A stretch of 44,061 nt of DNA. Origin: Gaiellales bacterium. Its GTDB lineage: Bacteria; Actinomycetota; Thermoleophilia; Gaiellales; JAICJC01. The position numbers were made by a program, and so were the translations under genes. Location: NCBI GenBank assembly GCA_036403155.1, contig DASWRM010000045.1, forward strand, positions 1 through 44,061. The letters run 5' to 3'. The stretch's first letter is position 1. Every line of letters begins with the position of its first letter. Shown here piece after piece: positions 33,277-40,899 of the stretch. Under the pieces are notes generated by a model. That model was not told the DNA's origin and did no database searches. It worked only from the letters and a program-made list of their open reading frames with translations.

Positions 33277-33842
33277 CGGGTCGCACGGGGTGGGTCGTGG
33301 CGCTCGCCGGGGCGGTCGCCTTCGGCGCGGTCGATCAGTATTTCGGCAGCCTGCGGTTCCTCGTGGAGTTCGGCCGGTGGCCGTCGACTGCGGCCCAGGT
33401 GTCTGCGACCTGGCTGATCGTCCCGTTCCTGGCCGGCTGGACACAGCGAAGCGCTCGGTCGGCGCTCGCGATCGGGCTCGTCTCGACGCAGGCGGCGCTG
33501 GTCGCCTACTGCCTGATGACGGTCAGCCCGTTCGAGGGCGTCGCGATCGCCTCGGCGCCCACGGCGGCCGCGGCGATGGCACAGTCGAACCTCGTCTACG
33601 TCGTCGCCGGCCTGGTCACCGGCCCGGTCTATGGTTGGCTCGGCCTCCGGTGGCGCGAGACCCGCTGGGTGGTCAGCGCGGCGCTCGTGATCGGCGCTCT
33701 CTGCTTCGAGCCGCTTGCGCGGGCATCGGTCGGACGGACGTACGACCCGGTGACCGTCTGGCAGATCGAGGTGCTTGTCGGGCTGGCGGTCGCAGTCGCC
33801 TTCGGCGGGATGGTGCTCGCCCGCCGGCGCCAGCCGGCCTGA
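33273..33842 (+). CDS. Hypothetical multi-pass membrane protein
   Basis: A 189-residue protein with about six hydrophobic helices, among them VVALAGAVAFGAVDQYFG and VGLAVAVAFGGMVLA. No charged motif suggests an enzyme or transporter type. The GTGA overlap with pspA implies joint expression, so a role beside PspA in the membrane is possible. It may belong to one of the DUF membrane families, but I cannot name it with confidence. Confidence 0.65.
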   Translation: MTGRTGWVVALAGAVAFGAVDQYFGSLRFLVEFGRWPSTAAQVSATWLIVPFLAGWTQRSARSALAIGLVSTQAALVAYCLMTVSPFEGVAIASAPTAAAAMAQSNLVYVVAGLVTGPVYGWLGLRWRETRWVVSAALVIGALCFEPLARASVGRTYDPVTVWQIEVLVGLAVAVAFGGMVLARRRQPA

Positions 33843-33848
33843 AGCGAT

Positions 33849-33864
33849 GCGAACATATGTTCGC
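33849..33864. promoter_or_regulatory. Perfect 16-bp SOS (LexA) box
   Basis: GCGAACATATGTTCGC is a perfect palindrome containing GAAC-N4-GTTC, the LexA site of Gram-positive bacteria and mycobacteria. It lies immediately upstream of the -10 box of the radical SAM gene, so LexA bound here would block RNA polymerase. Confidence 0.85.
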
Positions 33865-33870
33865 TATACT
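33865..33870 (+). promoter_or_regulatory. -10 box TATACT for the radical SAM gene
   Basis: TATACT abuts the SOS box and is followed by GCCGCG and the ATG at 33877. The 6-nt gap indicates a leaderless transcript under LexA control. Confidence 0.65.
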
Positions 33871-33876
33871 GCCGCG

Positions 33877-34851
33877 ATGCGCTGGCAGCGCGACGACCCA
33901 CAGCTGGAGTTGTTCGGCCCCGAGCAGCGTGACCTGCCGACGGTGGAGTACATGGCGGTCAACGCGCGGCGGATCATCAACACGCTCCCGCCCGCGTCGC
34001 GGATGCCGTTTCGCCACACCATCAACGCGTATCGCGGCTGCCGCCACGCGTGCACGTACTGCTTCGCGCGTCCGACGCACGAGTACCTGGGGCTGAACAC
34101 CGGCGAGGACTTCGAGCGGCGCATCGTCGTCAAGGTCAACGCGGTGGAGCGGCTCGAGCGGGAGTTGGAGGATCCCGCATGGGCCGGCGAGTCGATCGCC
34201 ATGGGGACGAACACGGATCCCTACCAGCCGGCCGAGGGCCACTACCGCCTCACGCTCGGCCTGATCCAGGTGCTCGCCCGGCATGCCAATCCGTTCTCGA
34301 TCCTGACCAAGTCCTCGATGATCCTGCGCGACATCGACGTGCTGTCCGAGGCGGCGCGCCGCACGGCGGTCGGCGTCGCCATGTCGATCGGCACGGACGA
34401 CGACGCGATCGCCCGCGTGACCGAGCCCGGCGCCGCGCCGCCGACCCGGAGGCTGCAGGCGATCGCGCGGCTCGCCGAGGCGGGGCTGCGTCCAACGGTG
34501 CTGATGGCGCCGATCCTGCCTGGCATCAGCGATGCCGAGCCGCAGGTGCGCCGCCTGGTCGACGCCTGCCTCGACGCCGGTGCCGAGCGGGTGACCCCGC
34601 TCCTGCTCCACCTGCGGCCGGGCGTCCGCGAGCACTACATGAGCTGGCTCGAGCGGGCGCGGCCGGAGCTGGTCGGGCTGCACGAGGACGCCTACCGGGC
34701 CGGCGCGTACGGTGCCCGGGATGACCGCGACCGGCTGGCGGGGATCGTGCGCGACCAGATCAGCGCGCGAGCAGGTGGATGTCCGGGAGGTGCCGGAACC
34801 GCTGGCGGTGGTCGAACCCGTAGCCGACGACGAACGCATCGGGCGCCGTGA
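33877..34851 (+). CDS. Radical SAM protein of the Rv2578c / SplB-like family
   Basis: A 324-residue radical SAM protein. The cluster motif is CRHACTYC (CxxxCxxC, about residue 55), followed by FARPTHEYLGL, AMGTNTDPYQPAE and the barrel strand LMAPILPGISD. This group resembles spore photoproduct lyase and actinobacterial Rv2578c; its reaction is not known. An ATG at 33847 in the same frame would place the SOS box and promoter inside the gene, so 33877 is the better start. The last 25 residues are a low-complexity Gly/Arg tail, and the gene overlaps the convergent hpt by 92 nt. Confidence 0.88.
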   Translation: MRWQRDDPQLELFGPEQRDLPTVEYMAVNARRIINTLPPASRMPFRHTINAYRGCRHACTYCFARPTHEYLGLNTGEDFERRIVVKVNAVERLERELEDPAWAGESIAMGTNTDPYQPAEGHYRLTLGLIQVLARHANPFSILTKSSMILRDIDVLSEAARRTAVGVAMSIGTDDDAIARVTEPGAAPPTRRLQAIARLAEAGLRPTVLMAPILPGISDAEPQVRRLVDACLDAGAERVTPLLLHLRPGVREHYMSWLERARPELVGLHEDAYRAGAYGARDDRDRLAGIVRDQISARAGGCPGGAGTAGGGRTRSRRRTHRAP

Positions 34852-35730: not shown

Positions 35731-36516
35731 ATGGCCGACGACCGTCCGTTCACCATCGCGCATCTCTCAGACCTCCACTGTGGCTCGCCCTATTTCGTGG
35801 CCAACCTGTTGGAGCGCGCGATCGGCGAGATCAACGACATGCAGCCCGACGTCGTTGTCTGTTCCGGCGACCTGACCACCTTCGGATACAAGCAGGAGTA
35901 CGCACAGGCCCGGACCTACCTCGACCGACTGGACTGCCCCGACGTCATCACGATTCCCGGGAACCACGACTCGAGAAACGTGGGATACGTCCACTTCGAG
36001 GAGATGATCGGCCCCCGCTCGACGGTGCTGCGCAAGGGCGGGATCACGTTCGTGGCGATCGACTCGTCGGAGCCGGATCTCGACCACGGCGTGATCGGCC
36101 GCAGCCGCTACGACTGGATCGAGGAGCAGTTCCGGCCCGAGGCGGAGTTCCGCGTGTTCGTCCTGCACCACCACCTGCTCCCGATCCCGGGCACCGGCCG
36201 CGAGCGCAACGTGGTGCACGACGCCGGCGACACGCTCGAGGTGCTGCAGCGCTCCCGCGTGAACCTCGTCCTCTCCGGACACAAGCACGTCCCCTACGCC
36301 TGGCGCCTGGAGGACCTGTTCGTGGTCAACGCCGGGACGGTCTCCTCGATGCGCGTTCGCGGGCACACCCGGCCGTGCTACAACGTCGTCGAGATCGGCG
36401 CCGATGCGGTCGACATCTACCGGCGCTACCCCTACCACGGCCGCGAGACCATCATCCGCTTCTCGACCTCGACGCTCGCCTACGAGAAGCACCTGCCGCT
36501 GAGGGGCAGCGGGTAG
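35731..36516 (+). CDS. Calcineurin-like metallophosphoesterase, candidate cyclic-phosphate hydrolase
   Basis: A 261-residue two-metal phosphoesterase with all ligand motifs: SDLH, CSGDLTT, PGNHDS, LHHHL and SGHKHVPY. The organisation resembles the class III cyclic nucleotide phosphodiesterases (CpdA-like). Its stop shares a base with the start of the cyclic 2,3-diphosphoglycerate synthetase gene (TAGTG), so both are made together. A role in opening cyclic 2,3-diphosphoglycerate or hydrolysing a related phosphate is therefore attractive, but this is inference. A TATGAT -10 box lies 10 nt before the ATG. Confidence 0.87.
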   Translation: MADDRPFTIAHLSDLHCGSPYFVANLLERAIGEINDMQPDVVVCSGDLTTFGYKQEYAQARTYLDRLDCPDVITIPGNHDSRNVGYVHFEEMIGPRSTVLRKGGITFVAIDSSEPDLDHGVIGRSRYDWIEEQFRPEAEFRVFVLHHHLLPIPGTGRERNVVHDAGDTLEVLQRSRVNLVLSGHKHVPYAWRLEDLFVVNAGTVSSMRVRGHTRPCYNVVEIGADAVDIYRRYPYHGRETIIRFSTSTLAYEKHLPLRGSG

Positions 36517-37817
36517 TGGCGGATCGCGTGCTTGCGCTGGTGGACGGCGAGCACTATCCGCCGGTCGTGCGGGCGGCGATCGATCAGGCGCAGGAGAGCT
36601 ACGACGTCGTGGCGGCGCTGCTGCTGGGCGGAACCGAGAAGCTGGCCGGCGAGCCCGACTACGGCGTGCCGCTGGAGCGGGTGCGCGGCGATGCGGCCGG
36701 CTCGATGCTCGAGGCCGCCGGGCGCCACGCCGTCGAGCGGGTGCTCGACCTTTCCGACGAGCCGGTGCTGAGCGAGGAGCGGCGGATGTGGCTGGCGGCG
36801 AACGCGCTCGCCGCTGGGCTCGCGTACGAGGGTTCCGACTTCGAGCTTCGCCCACCCGCCGCCGAGCCGCTCTCAGTGCCGGCGGTTGCGATCACCGGAA
36901 CGGGCAAGCGCGTCGGGAAGACCGCGGTCTCGGTGCACACGGCGCGCGTCCTGCGCGACTCCGGACGGCACGTCGCCGTCGTCGCGATGGGCCGCGGCGG
37001 GCCGCCGGTGCCGGAACTGGTGGCCGCCCGCGAGCGTCCGATTGGCGTGGCCGACCTGCTCGAACGGTCGCGCGCCGGCATGCACGCCGCTTCCGACTTC
37101 CTCGAGGACGCGGTCCTGACCGGCGTGCCGACCGTCGGCGCGCGGCGCTGCGGCGGCGGGCTCGCAGGAGGCACGTATCTCTCGAATGCCGTGGATGCGG
37201 CACGCGTCGCGGAGCAGCTCGCACCCGACCTGCTGCTGCTCGAAGGATCCGGTGCGGCGGTGCCACCGCTGCGTGCCGACCGCACGGTGCTGGTCACGTC
37301 GGCCAGGCGCCCGGCCGCCTCCCTGACGGCAGGCCTCGGGCCGGTGCGCGTGCTGCGCGCGCACCTTGTGGTGATCACCATGGCGGAGGATGGCGCCGGC
37401 GACGCGCGCGAGGCGATCGAGGCGGTTGCGCCCAACATCCCGACCGTCGCCGTCACGCTGCGGCCGCACCCGCTTGAGCCGCTCGGCGACGCGCCGGTCG
37501 CCTTCTTCACGACGACCCCCGCGCCACGCGCCGAGACCCTCGCCGCGCGCCTTCCCGGCCAGGTCGAGGCGGTGGTCGCGTCGCTGTCCGATCGCACCGC
37601 ACTGGCGGCCGCACTCGACCGTGCCGACGTGCGCCGCGCGGAGACGTTCCTCGTCGAGATCAAGGGTGCCGCGGTCGACGTCGTCTGCGAGGCGGCGGCG
37701 GCGCGGGGCGTCCGGGTCGTGTTCTGCGACAACGTGCCCGAGCCCGCGCCGGGCGAGCCCGATCTCGACGCGGTGCTGATCGAGCTGGCCGCGGAGGCGA
37801 TGGCCGTCCATGCCTGA
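36516..37817 (+). CDS. cpgS: Cyclic 2,3-diphosphoglycerate synthetase
   Basis: A 433-residue enzyme resembling the archaeal cyclic 2,3-diphosphoglycerate synthetase. It uses ATP to close 2,3-diphosphoglycerate into cyclic 2,3-diphosphoglycerate, a solute and phosphate store of thermophilic methanogens. A P-loop ITGTGKRVGKTAVSVH is at about residue 128, and RRCGGGLAGGTYLSNAVD and LLLEGSGAAVPP follow. The GTG start (ADRVLALVDGEHYPP) overlaps the phosphoesterase stop. The end overlaps the 2-phosphoglycerate kinase start by 8 nt. That neighbour makes the substrate, which supports the call. Confidence 0.88.
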   Translation: MADRVLALVDGEHYPPVVRAAIDQAQESYDVVAALLLGGTEKLAGEPDYGVPLERVRGDAAGSMLEAAGRHAVERVLDLSDEPVLSEERRMWLAANALAAGLAYEGSDFELRPPAAEPLSVPAVAITGTGKRVGKTAVSVHTARVLRDSGRHVAVVAMGRGGPPVPELVAARERPIGVADLLERSRAGMHAASDFLEDAVLTGVPTVGARRCGGGLAGGTYLSNAVDAARVAEQLAPDLLLLEGSGAAVPPLRADRTVLVTSARRPAASLTAGLGPVRVLRAHLVVITMAEDGAGDAREAIEAVAPNIPTVAVTLRPHPLEPLGDAPVAFFTTTPAPRAETLAARLPGQVEAVVASLSDRTALAAALDRADVRRAETFLVEIKGAAVDVVCEAAAARGVRVVFCDNVPEPAPGEPDLDAVLIELAAEAMAVHA

Positions 37818-38730
37818 CGCCCGCGAGCCGCGCATCCGGGGACGCGGCCACGCGCTGCCGTTCTCGAAGGGGCGCATGGCCACGACGCTGTTCCTCTCGG
37901 GCGTCGAGGCGGAGCACGCGTACGCGCTCGCGCTCGAGGTCGAGCGTTCGGTGCTCGACACCGGCGTGGAGGAGATCGCCCTCGACGACCTGCACCCGAT
38001 CGTCGAAGCCGTGCTGGCCCGGCGCGACGGCACGGCCGGCGTCGAGCGCTACCGCGCCTGGCAGAAGGTGCTGCGGCGCGAGCGGCCGCTCGTCCTGCTG
38101 ATGGGCGGCGCGACCGGCACGGGGAAGAGCTCCCTCGCCACCGAGCTTGCCTACCGGCTGGGGATCAGCCGGATCACGTCCACCGACGTGGTGCGCCAGG
38201 TGATGCGCGCCTTCTTTGCCCCGGCGCTGATGCCGGCGCTGCACTACAGCTCCTTCGAAGCGGGCGAGGCGATGCGCATGCCGATGCCGGATCCCGACCA
38301 GGCCGACCGGGCGCTGTACGGGTTCATGCAGCAGGCCGAGCAGGTCGCCGTCGGCGCGGCGGCGGTGGTCGACCGCGCGGTGCAGGAGGGCCTGTCCACG
38401 GTGCTCGAGGGAGTGCACATGGTGCCGGGGTTGGTCGACGTGCCGGAGCACACGTCTGCGACCGTCGTGCAGGTGCTGCTCGCGATCGAGGACGAGGAGT
38501 CGCATCAGTCGCATTTCGTGTCCCGCGGCTCGGCCCCGGGAGCCGGCCGTGGGCTCGAGCGGTACCTCAGGCACTTCGGGGAAATCCGGCGGATCCAGGA
38601 CTATCTCGTGGCGCGGGCGGAGCGGGTCGGCGTGCCGGTGATCGACGGGACCGACGGCGACCAGGCGCTGCGCGCGGTGCTGGATCTGATCCTCGAACGC
38701 GCCACCGCCGCCCCCGGCGGGGTACGCTGA
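37810..38730 (+). CDS. pgk2: 2-phosphoglycerate kinase
   Basis: A 306-residue kinase that phosphorylates 2-phosphoglycerate to 2,3-diphosphoglycerate. An ATP-cone-like N-terminal domain (LPFSKGRMATTLFLSGVEAE, residues ~16-85) precedes the kinase core with Walker A GGATGTGKSSLA (about 98) and SRITSTDVVRQVMR. This two-part form is typical of the archaeal enzyme. It overlaps the preceding synthetase gene, so both steps of the pathway are translated together. The symbol is descriptive only; no standard bacterial name is fixed. Confidence 0.88.
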   Translation: MPDAREPRIRGRGHALPFSKGRMATTLFLSGVEAEHAYALALEVERSVLDTGVEEIALDDLHPIVEAVLARRDGTAGVERYRAWQKVLRRERPLVLLMGGATGTGKSSLATELAYRLGISRITSTDVVRQVMRAFFAPALMPALHYSSFEAGEAMRMPMPDPDQADRALYGFMQQAEQVAVGAAAVVDRAVQEGLSTVLEGVHMVPGLVDVPEHTSATVVQVLLAIEDEESHQSHFVSRGSAPGAGRGLERYLRHFGEIRRIQDYLVARAERVGVPVIDGTDGDQALRAVLDLILERATAAPGGVR

Positions 38731-38745
38731 CCCCATGAGCGGAGG
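38723..38745 (+). promoter_or_regulatory. Internal promoter and ribosome site before the glpX-like gene
   Basis: TACGCT (38723-38728) overlaps the end of the kinase gene. A transcript starting about 38735 would carry GGAGG (38741-38745) 11 nt before the GTG at 38757. This gives the downstream genes a possible separate promoter. Confidence 0.4.
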
Positions 38746-38756
38746 TGAATCACCCG

Positions 38757-39764
38757 GTGGCGACTGAGGCGAGCGCCACGGACGAGACCAGGCTCGCTGA
38801 ACGGCCGGAGGAGCGGTGCCCCTGCACCGACCTCGTGCTGGTCAGCGAACGCTCGGCGCTCGCGGCCGGCCGGTACCTGGGGCGGGGCGATCCGCGCGGC
38901 GCCGACGAGGCCGCTAGCGAGGCGATGGTGCAGGCGCTCGCGGCGCTGCCGGTCAGCGGCACGGTCGTGATCGGTCGCAGCGAGGACGGTCACATGCTGT
39001 CCCCCGGATCGGCGCTCGGCGGCGGCGGCCTGGAGCTCGAGCTCGCCTGCGACCCCGTGGAGGGCGCCGGGGTGGTCGCGCGCGGCGGCGTCGGCGCGCT
39101 CTCGATCCTCGCCGCCTGCGAGCCCGGCGGCATCACGCGGGTGCCGCGCATGTACATGAAGAAGATGGCGGTCGGCCCCGTGGCCAAGGGGCACGTCGAC
39201 CTCCACAGAAGCGTGACCGAGAACCTGCACGCGATCGCAGAGGCGTTCGGCCGCCGCATCGGCGACATCACCGCTGTGGTGCTGGACCGGCCGCGCCACG
39301 AGGATCTGATCGCCGAGATCCGGGAGGCCGGCGCGCGCATCAAGGTGATCGCCGACGGCGACATCACGGCCACCATCGACGCGGCCATCCGCGGCACGAA
39401 CGACCACCTGGCGGTGGGAATCGGCGGCGCGTTCGAGGGCATCATCTCGGCCGCCGCGCTGCACTGCCTGGGCGGAGAGATCCAGGGGCAGCTGTGGCCG
39501 ATGAGCCGCACCGAGATCCGCCAGGCCGCGGAGCACGGCATCGACGACATCAACCAGATCTTCGGCATCGACGACCTCGTTCGCGGCCATCAGATGGTCG
39601 TCGGCACGGGGATCTCCAACGGCGACCTGCTCCGCGGCGTCAGGTACTTCGCCGAGGGCGCGCGCACGCAGTCGATCGTCCTGTGCTCGCGGTGCAACCG
39701 CGTGCGGTTCATCGACTCGATCCACCTGTTTTCGCGTGACCGCCACGAGGAGATCCGCCTGTGA
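38757..39764 (+). CDS. glpX: GlpX-like (class II fructose-bisphosphatase family) phosphatase with altered active site
   Basis: A 335-residue GlpX homologue. Conserved parts are SERSALAAGRYLGRGDPRGAD, ACDPVEG, MYMKKMAVGP, LDRPRHEDLI, GDI, GIGGAFEG and a late GTGISNGDLL. However, the usual GEGExDEAPM loop reads GRSEDGHM: the first Glu, a metal ligand in E. coli GlpX, is Arg here, and two residues are missing. The Thr after the DPxEG motif is Ala. The substrate may differ from fructose 1,6-bisphosphate. GTG 38757 is chosen for the upstream GGAGG; GTG 38745 is an alternative. The C terminus carries a CSRC pair. The stop overlaps the next GTG. Confidence 0.87.
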   Translation: MATEASATDETRLAERPEERCPCTDLVLVSERSALAAGRYLGRGDPRGADEAASEAMVQALAALPVSGTVVIGRSEDGHMLSPGSALGGGGLELELACDPVEGAGVVARGGVGALSILAACEPGGITRVPRMYMKKMAVGPVAKGHVDLHRSVTENLHAIAEAFGRRIGDITAVVLDRPRHEDLIAEIREAGARIKVIADGDITATIDAAIRGTNDHLAVGIGGAFEGIISAAALHCLGGEIQGQLWPMSRTEIRQAAEHGIDDINQIFGIDDLVRGHQMVVGTGISNGDLLRGVRYFAEGARTQSIVLCSRCNRVRFIDSIHLFSRDRHEEIRL

Positions 39765-40600
39765 CGGCGGAGCCGCAGCTCTTCGAGCTGCACGACCTGG
39801 CTCGGGAGCGCGGCATCGAGGGATACCGGCGGCTGTCGAAGGCCGAGCTGCTGGGGGCGATCGGCGAGCTGCCGCCGCCGGCGCCGACGACCGTCGAGAC
39901 GTCGGTGAAGGACGGCCTCGCCGTGCTCACGCTCCGTGGGCCGGGCGGCGACAACGCGCTCGCGCTGGAGACGATCGAGCAGCTGGCCGACGAGGCCGAG
40001 CGGCTGTCGGGGGATCAGGCCGTCCGGGTGATCGCGATCACGGGGGCCGGCAATCGGGTGTTCTGCGCGGGGGCCGATCTGCCCCGCGTACGCGGGCTGC
40101 CGGGCACCGAGGTCACGGAGCGGGGAAGCAGGGCGTGCGACCGGATCGCCGCCGTGCCCGTGCCGACGCTCGCGGTGCTGAACGGTCACGCGGTCGGCGG
40201 TGGCATCGACTTGGCGCTCGCGTGCGACTGGCGGATCGCCGCCCAGGGGGCGAAGCTGCGGTTCATCCACAACGAGCTCGGCTACTGCCCGCCATGGGGC
40301 GGCGCGCAGCGGCTGGCACGGCTGCTGGGACCGGGGGCCGCGCTGCGGCTGTTCGCGACGTGCGAGCTGTTGTCGGCGGATGAGGCGCGGACGCTCGGCC
40401 TCGTCGACGCGGTGGTGCCGCACGAGAAGCTGCACGGACGGGCGGAGGCGCTCGCCGGGCGGGTGGCACGTGCCGGCCGGGCGGCGGTCGCGGCCACCAA
40501 GCCGCTGCTCGGAGCGGCAGAGGCGACGGGGCACGAGCAGGCGTTCGCAGCGCTGTGGGATGCGACCGCCTCCGACGACGGGGCTACGATGCAGGCATGA
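39761..40600 (+). CDS. Enoyl-CoA hydratase/isomerase-like protein with N-terminal Rho-N-like domain
   Basis: A 279-residue fusion. Residues 6-36 (LFELHDLARERGIEGYRRLS and the following KAELLGAIG) match the small helical Rho-N/SAP-like module seen at the start of transcription factor Rho. The crotonase fold follows from about 45, with VFCAGADL and NGHAVGGGIDLALACD. The two catalytic Glu positions of true enoyl-CoA hydratases are Asp and a non-Glu residue here (GGGIDLA; RFIHNELG), so classical hydratase activity is doubtful. It is coupled to both neighbours by GTGA and ATGA overlaps. Confidence 0.82.
   Translation: MTAEPQLFELHDLARERGIEGYRRLSKAELLGAIGELPPPAPTTVETSVKDGLAVLTLRGPGGDNALALETIEQLADEAERLSGDQAVRVIAITGAGNRVFCAGADLPRVRGLPGTEVTERGSRACDRIAAVPVPTLAVLNGHAVGGGIDLALACDWRIAAQGAKLRFIHNELGYCPPWGGAQRLARLLGPGAALRLFATCELLSADEARTLGLVDAVVPHEKLHGRAEALAGRVARAGRAAVAATKPLLGAAEATGHEQAFAALWDATASDDGATMQA
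40585..40590 (+). promoter_or_regulatory. -10 box TACGAT for the SufT-like gene
   Basis: TACGAT, then GCAGGC, then the ATG at 40597. The box lies inside the end of the upstream gene and would give a leaderless transcript. Confidence 0.45.
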
Positions 40601-40899
40601 GCGTTACCGAAGAGCAGGTGTTCGACGCGCTGCGCGTGGTCGAGGATCCGGAGTTGGGCATGGACGTCGTCGACCTCGGGCTCGTCTACGACGTGCGCGT
40701 CGAGGAGGGCAGCAAGGTCACGGTCACGTACTCGCTGACGTCGATGGGCTGCCCGGCGGGGGCGATGATCCAGGAGCAGATGCGCGACGTCGTCGCGTCG
40801 CTCGAGGGCGTGGGAGAGGTCGTCACCGACCTCACGTGGACGCCACCGTGGTCGCCCGAGATGATGTCGGACGACGCGAAGTTCGTGCTCGGCTTCTAG
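40597..40899 (+). CDS. MIP18/SufT/PaaD-type (DUF59) iron-sulfur assembly protein
   Basis: A 100-residue single-domain protein. VFDALRVVEDPELGMDVVDLGLVYDV is the conserved DUF59 N-terminal block (in two parts), and SMGCPAGAMI carries the conserved Cys. Relatives help deliver iron-sulfur clusters (SufT, MIP18) or mature the phenylacetyl-CoA oxygenase (PaaD). No suf or paa genes are adjacent, so a general Fe-S maturation role is most likely. It ends the cluster and converges with the reductase gene, with overlapping stops. Confidence 0.85.
   Translation: MSVTEEQVFDALRVVEDPELGMDVVDLGLVYDVRVEEGSKVTVTYSLTSMGCPAGAMIQEQMRDVVASLEGVGEVVTDLTWTPPWSPEMMSDDAKFVLGF

Follow-up and report, generated by a model that had tools for sequence, protein, structure and literature searches.

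The 44,061-nucleotide contig DASWRM010000045.1 of a Gaiellales bacterium (assembly GCA_036403155.1; Actinomycetota, Thermoleophilia), here called the window over its whole length, carries six ORFs at 35731-40899, all on the plus strand and with ends overlapping or nearly touching. The first three of these probably constitute an operon for the synthesis and turnover of cyclic 2,3-diphosphoglycerate (cDPG), with a metallophosphoesterase (MPE) as candidate degradation enzyme beside a cDPG synthetase (cDPGS) and a putative 2-phosphoglycerate kinase (2PGK):

35731-36516, + strand: MPE, core gene 1, candidate cDPG hydrolase or 2,3-diphosphoglycerate (2,3-DPG) phosphatase (PF00149, E 4e-20)
36516-37817, + strand: cDPGS, cyclic 2,3-diphosphoglycerate synthetase (PDB 8ork/8oru, E 1e-77; 9sxb, E 5e-70)
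37810-38730, + strand: putative 2PGK, core gene 3, with an ATP-cone-like N-terminus (PRK12337 and PRK04220, below cut-off)

Judged by the homology matches of cDPGS and 2PGK, and by the order of the first three genes, which recurs unchanged in dozens of genomes, these are real genes and not chance frames. The cDPGS gene starts with GTG, overlapping the MPE stop (TAGTG). The 8-nt overlap between cDPGS and 2PGK described in a first-pass annotation of this DNA agrees with the coordinates, as does the one-directional run of six genes; the overlapping genes are predicted, very probably, to be co-transcribed.

In the proposed pathway, 2PGK would convert 2-phosphoglycerate and ATP to 2,3-DPG, and cDPGS would then form the ring at the cost of another ATP, a phosphoryl group going to the 2-phosphate and the 3-phosphate then attacking. 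MPE would most likely hydrolyze cDPG to 2,3-DPG, 2,3-DPG to phosphoglycerate, or both: this step would give carbon and phosphate back to glycolysis and gluconeogenesis, with cDPG serving meanwhile as a solute and as a store of phosphate and carbon. The enzyme pair leading from 2-phosphoglycerate to the cyclic compound had been recognized from the start, and both members are indeed present, cDPGS with an intact site and 2PGK with scores below model cut-offs.

The Synthetase and the Kinase

No Pfam or NCBIfam model matches the window cDPGS, making family-based annotation useless for this protein, and its identification from the raw sequence was both correct and non-trivial: residues 4-425 of 433, N-terminal domain included, align to residues 6-449 of 8ork, and a second solved cDPGS, 9sxb, is also matched. 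Residues for 2,3-DPG, Mg and nucleotide are named in the Methanothermus fervidus structure paper (PMC10690619). Numbered by the M. fervidus sequence, in an alignment of 69 bacterial and 14 archaeal rows, the window protein keeps 11 of 11 of them (E45, K46, K145, R146, K149, T150, D208, E305, T353, E404, K406). All but E305 are invariant in 69/69 bacterial and 14/14 archaeal rows, and E305 is present in 65 of the 69 bacterial rows, the window among them. One further contact in that paper, P335, corresponds to Phe at 335 in the aligned 8ork, so that the numbering disagrees, and to Leu in the window. Active-site loss relative to archaeal cDPGS was thus looked for and none was found at the 11 named positions; as far as alignment can tell, the site is intact. 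Overall identity to archaeal cDPGS is about 38%, and in a tree the bacterial sequences stand apart from the archaeal ones with weak support (Shimodaira-Hasegawa-like approximate likelihood ratio test, SH-aLRT, 74).

The best models for the kinase are NCBIfam PRK12337 (E 2e-86) and PRK04220 (E 2e-85); the mevalonate-3-phosphate 5-kinase model is far weaker (75 vs 290 bits), and an ATP-cone model on the N-terminus reaches 24.1 bits vs a cut-off of 25.8. The protein is 34-38% identical over its whole length to Methanobacteriaceae 2PGK, and its start (MPD.REPRIRG) is kept in the nearest relative. A sequence search of PDB found no relative of it, and its predicted structure (mean predicted local distance difference test, pLDDT, 86) has a P-loop kinase fold closest to nucleotide and gluconate kinases. 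The standard Walker A lysine (GxGK) is present in 61/61 bacterial operon 2PGKs read, and Thr replaces it (GxGTS) in methanogen and Rubrobacter 2PGKs (L124, L126 and L127, Methanobacteriaceae; L128 and L129, Rubrobacter). On these features the window kinase looks like a 2PGK and is positioned as one, although it falls short of the cut-offs for equivalog membership. The same genome also holds a distant second 2PGK-like kinase (L038 939-1526, contig C68; 32% over 205 residues).

Gene Order and Co-occurrence

When GTDB genomes were scanned, 459 stretches proved to encode cDPGS relatives. The best 80 of them were classified: these belong to Thermoleophilia, Coriobacteriia, Rubrobacter, Euzebyaceae, Geothermocultor, Methanobacteriaceae and one Thorarchaeote. 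Neighborhoods were compared for 68 bacterial and 12 archaeal cDPGS loci. In 67/68 bacterial loci the gene immediately upstream of cDPGS is MPE, and in 62/68 the one immediately downstream is 2PGK, short overlaps being common; the six bacterial loci without a downstream 2PGK comprise three contig ends and three from Rubrobacter, where an archaeal-like 2PGK homolog is found elsewhere in the genome. Neither MPE nor 2PGK is linked to cDPGS at any of the 12 archaeal loci. The conserved unit is therefore MPE-cDPGS-2PGK, and it is an actinobacterial operon and not an archaeal one, since the archaeal loci examined do not link the three genes; the label "archaeal-type operon" given at first has to be dropped, the more so as the bacterial synthetases separate, weakly, from the archaeal ones. 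The unit is often set in a housekeeping region, with hom-thrB upstream and tal-rho-rpmE downstream.

Presence and absence across 299 genomes of the window's class follow the same pattern. cDPGS is present in 134, so it is no peculiarity of this organism; 2PGK is present in 131, MPE orthologs are present in 132, and all three occur together in 126. cDPGS and an MPE ortholog coincide in 130 genomes, leaving four with cDPGS only and two with MPE only, and both of the latter contain a piece of cDPGS right beside MPE. cDPGS and 2PGK likewise coincide in 130 genomes, four having cDPGS only and one 2PGK only. The Fisher P values of about 1e-77 make the case look stronger than it is, the counts being of genomes and not of independent events, but the joint presence and absence of the genes is plain. 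The association of cDPGS with MPE-family genes extends to Methanobacteriota: among 150 genomes, cDPGS is found in 126 and an MPE-family protein in 120 (both 111, cDPGS only 15, MPE only 9, neither 15; P 5e-7). Linkage of MPE to the other two genes in archaea was considered and rejected: the methanogen MPE gene is next to neither, and it adjoins a nascent-polypeptide-associated complex gene (L153 5255-6351, L154 5370-6469; family tested in L153), its other neighbors giving no telling family match.

The Metallophosphoesterase

MPE carries all the class III metal-ligand motifs (DxH, GD, GNHD, H, GHxH), and D14, H16, D47, N78, H79, H146-148, H184 and H186 are invariant across 24 sequences. Two further signatures, DSSxPD..G..GR and P-TGRER...DAGD, mark the family. 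The nearest solved folds to its structural model (pLDDT 86) are the cyclic-nucleotide phosphodiesterase Rv0805 and the glycerol phosphodiesterase GpdQ; MPE shares their fold and metal-ligand motifs, but is only about 20% identical to them and has signatures, and a genomic partner in cDPGS, of its own. It is the most conserved protein of the three-gene unit (50-91% identity). In the MPE tree, operon copies form one clade (85/90) which the Methanobacteriaceae proteins adjoin (86/73), and paralogs, mostly from class genomes without cDPGS, form a separate group; the long branches (Thorarchaeota and a Geothermocultor paralog) are unreliably placed. MPE-family proteins with similar signatures were also seen in genomes lacking cDPGS or beside the operon copy (L143-L147, L150, L151).

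The first-pass annotation had proposed a linked turnover enzyme, and with MPE directly upstream of cDPGS a likely one is at hand: its genomic context makes MPE, most likely, the natural, if putative, candidate for the cDPG degradation step, to which no gene assignment was found in the literature. The corresponding reaction, cDPG hydrolysis, is known from Methanothermobacter as an activity only, for which a review names no gene (PMC1224877). Most cDPGS-bearing methanogen genomes hold an MPE-family protein, and its link to that activity is putative.

Weighing the Evidence

Several observations count against an operon for making and degrading cDPG. Four of the 134 cDPGS genomes in the class (L108/L176, L173, L174, L175) keep 2PGK and have no MPE ortholog, and the L108 genome has no strong MPE-family protein anywhere, so MPE must be dispensable. 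The occurrence of MPE-family paralogs in genomes without cDPGS indicates that the wider family has another substrate too. The kinase scores of 291 and 287 bits lie under the curated cut-offs of 603 and 343. The methanogen cDPG hydrolase of Methanothermobacter has been described as membrane-bound (PMC1224877), a recent paper calls cDPG exclusive to methanogens (PMC10690619), and no report of cDPG from any bacterium was found.

The main live rival, though unlikely, is that cDPG is made while MPE acts on something unrelated, for example a cyclic nucleotide, and is merely co-regulated, or else provides quality control of 2PGK or cDPGS side products. The phosphodiesterases nearest to MPE in fold, its relatives in genomes without cDPGS, and the housekeeping setting of the cassette would all fit this; the near-complete gain or loss of MPE together with cDPGS in the class (130/134), the separate clade of operon copies, and the conservation of MPE, the strongest within the unit, argue for a role tied to cDPG. 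Another alternative is that the 2PGK/cDPGS pair has itself been repurposed for some other vicinal diphosphate or hydroxy-acid phosphate. This draws on the GxGK rather than GxGT P-loop of the operon kinases and on their scores below model cut-offs. A change of function of the entire pathway is nevertheless improbable: it fits badly with the invariance of the residues seen to contact 2,3-DPG in the structure of the M. fervidus enzyme, and in Rubrobacter an archaeal-type 2PGK replaces the operon type.

2,3-DPG is also the cofactor of cofactor-dependent phosphoglycerate mutase (dPGM), which raises the question of whether 2PGK simply supplies that cofactor, with cDPGS as a secondary and perhaps reversible store. 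M. fervidus cDPGS is reversible (PMC1224877), which would suit such an arrangement. The genome, however, encodes a canonical cofactor-independent mutase (610 bits vs a cut-off of 331) and no clear dPGM, its histidine-phosphatase proteins scoring far below the dPGM cut-offs, so that 2,3-DPG would not be needed for this purpose; the presence of the cofactor-independent enzyme was taken to rule out a mutase-cofactor role for 2PGK, and the explanation is very improbable. Least credible of all is a recent transfer of archaeal genes into a single actinobacterium, with no wider meaning: the roughly 38% identity to archaeal cDPGS might bring it to mind, but it is already contradicted by the distribution, the same gene order being found in Thermoleophilia, Coriobacteriia, Rubrobacter, Euzebyaceae and Geothermocultor, and the bacterial sequences grouping together.

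Relation to the Archaeal Pathway and Implications

An operon for making and turning over cDPG would share its two synthetic enzymes with the M. fervidus pathway, including a full-length cDPGS homolog with an identical substrate and Mg-ATP site. It would differ in having these genes in one operon with a phosphoesterase, where the archaeal loci examined have them unlinked, in the standard Walker A lysine of its 2PGK, and in that most of the bacterial carriers are not known hyperthermophiles. A literature search on cDPGS, cDPG hydrolase, and 2PGK or diphosphoglycerate in Actinobacteria and Rubrobacter turned up no work on this pathway outside the archaea, most subscription papers being outside the search; the earlier remark that the system is not well described in bacteria thus holds, with no paper on bacterial cDPGS found in the searchable literature, and the novelty of bacterial cDPGS is provisional because of that same limit on coverage.

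cDPG has so far been described as a heat protectant confined to methanogens. If the proposed pathway is correct, the range of the compound would extend to bacteria and to moderate habitats, the conserved operon being carried by considerably more than a hundred actinobacterial genomes; this would favor a role as a store or phosphate buffer. A review describes cDPG in Methanobrevibacter smithii and evidence that the compound stores carbon and phosphate (PMC1224877). More broadly, it may be, though we put this forward tentatively and with less confidence than the pathway itself, that cDPG is a widespread bacterial protectant or store of phosphate and carbon, made by deep-branching Actinomycetota and by mesophiles among them, and that the linked MPE family supplies the long-missing cDPG hydrolase of methanogens as well as of bacteria. 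MPE would also give a specific, testable gene family to a degradation step so far known only as an activity, and the bacterial enzymes would be on offer for producing cDPG, a compound of biotechnological interest.

Neighboring Genes

The remaining three ORFs of the run are:

38745-39764, + strand: GlpX-like paralog with the class II fructose-bisphosphatase (FBPase) fold, accessory, probably not an FBPase (PF03320, E 2e-102)
39761-40600, + strand: crotonase-fold protein with a Rho_N-like N-terminus, local addition (PF00378, E 3e-43; PF07498, 23.5 bits)
40597-40899, + strand: DUF59/SufT-like Fe-S assembly protein, local addition (PF01883, E 2e-20; TIGR02945, 95 bits vs a cut-off of 143, below)

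All six genes had been proposed to form one system with its own turnover enzymes. Comparison of the gene order across relatives upholds this for the first three genes and for no others: GlpX is beside the cassette in 25/68 bacterial loci, the SufT-like gene occurs mainly in Gaiellales-type loci, and no family but the window's own has the crotonase next to the cassette. These counts rule out a six-gene functional unit and mark the last three genes as lineage-specific accessories or passengers. Downstream of the cassette, many relatives have transaldolase or GlpX, with rho, rpmE, prfA and prmC beyond, so that the GlpX linkage has the look of a gene order that was inherited.

The GlpX-like protein was rightly singled out as a variant, although the turnover role suggested for it does not stand. 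It has the fold of class II FBPase and matches the FBPase_glpX model, but differs from the M. tuberculosis enzyme at two active-site positions, the metal ligand Glu51 being replaced by Arg and the catalytic Thr84 by Ala; Thr84Ala FBPase is inactive in M. tuberculosis (PMC5892879). A turnover phosphatase of known FBPase type was rejected on these losses. With an intact GlpX (478 bits) on another contig of the same genome, the window copy is, by its residues, probably a degenerate paralog and not an FBPase. In other lineages still more residues are missing from the GlpX relatives, Glu208 being gone in most Gaiellales-type copies. Among the copies adjacent to the cassette, the catalytic residues that are lost vary from lineage to lineage, which would suit relaxed constraint or a new function (L107, L109, L072, L106, L112).

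The Rho_N-like N-terminus of the crotonase-fold protein scores just under the cut-off, and rho itself lies shortly downstream of the cassette in many relatives. No RNA families were found in the window. Just 5' of the region, at 33775-34848, is a radical SAM protein of the Rv2578c/PA0069 type.

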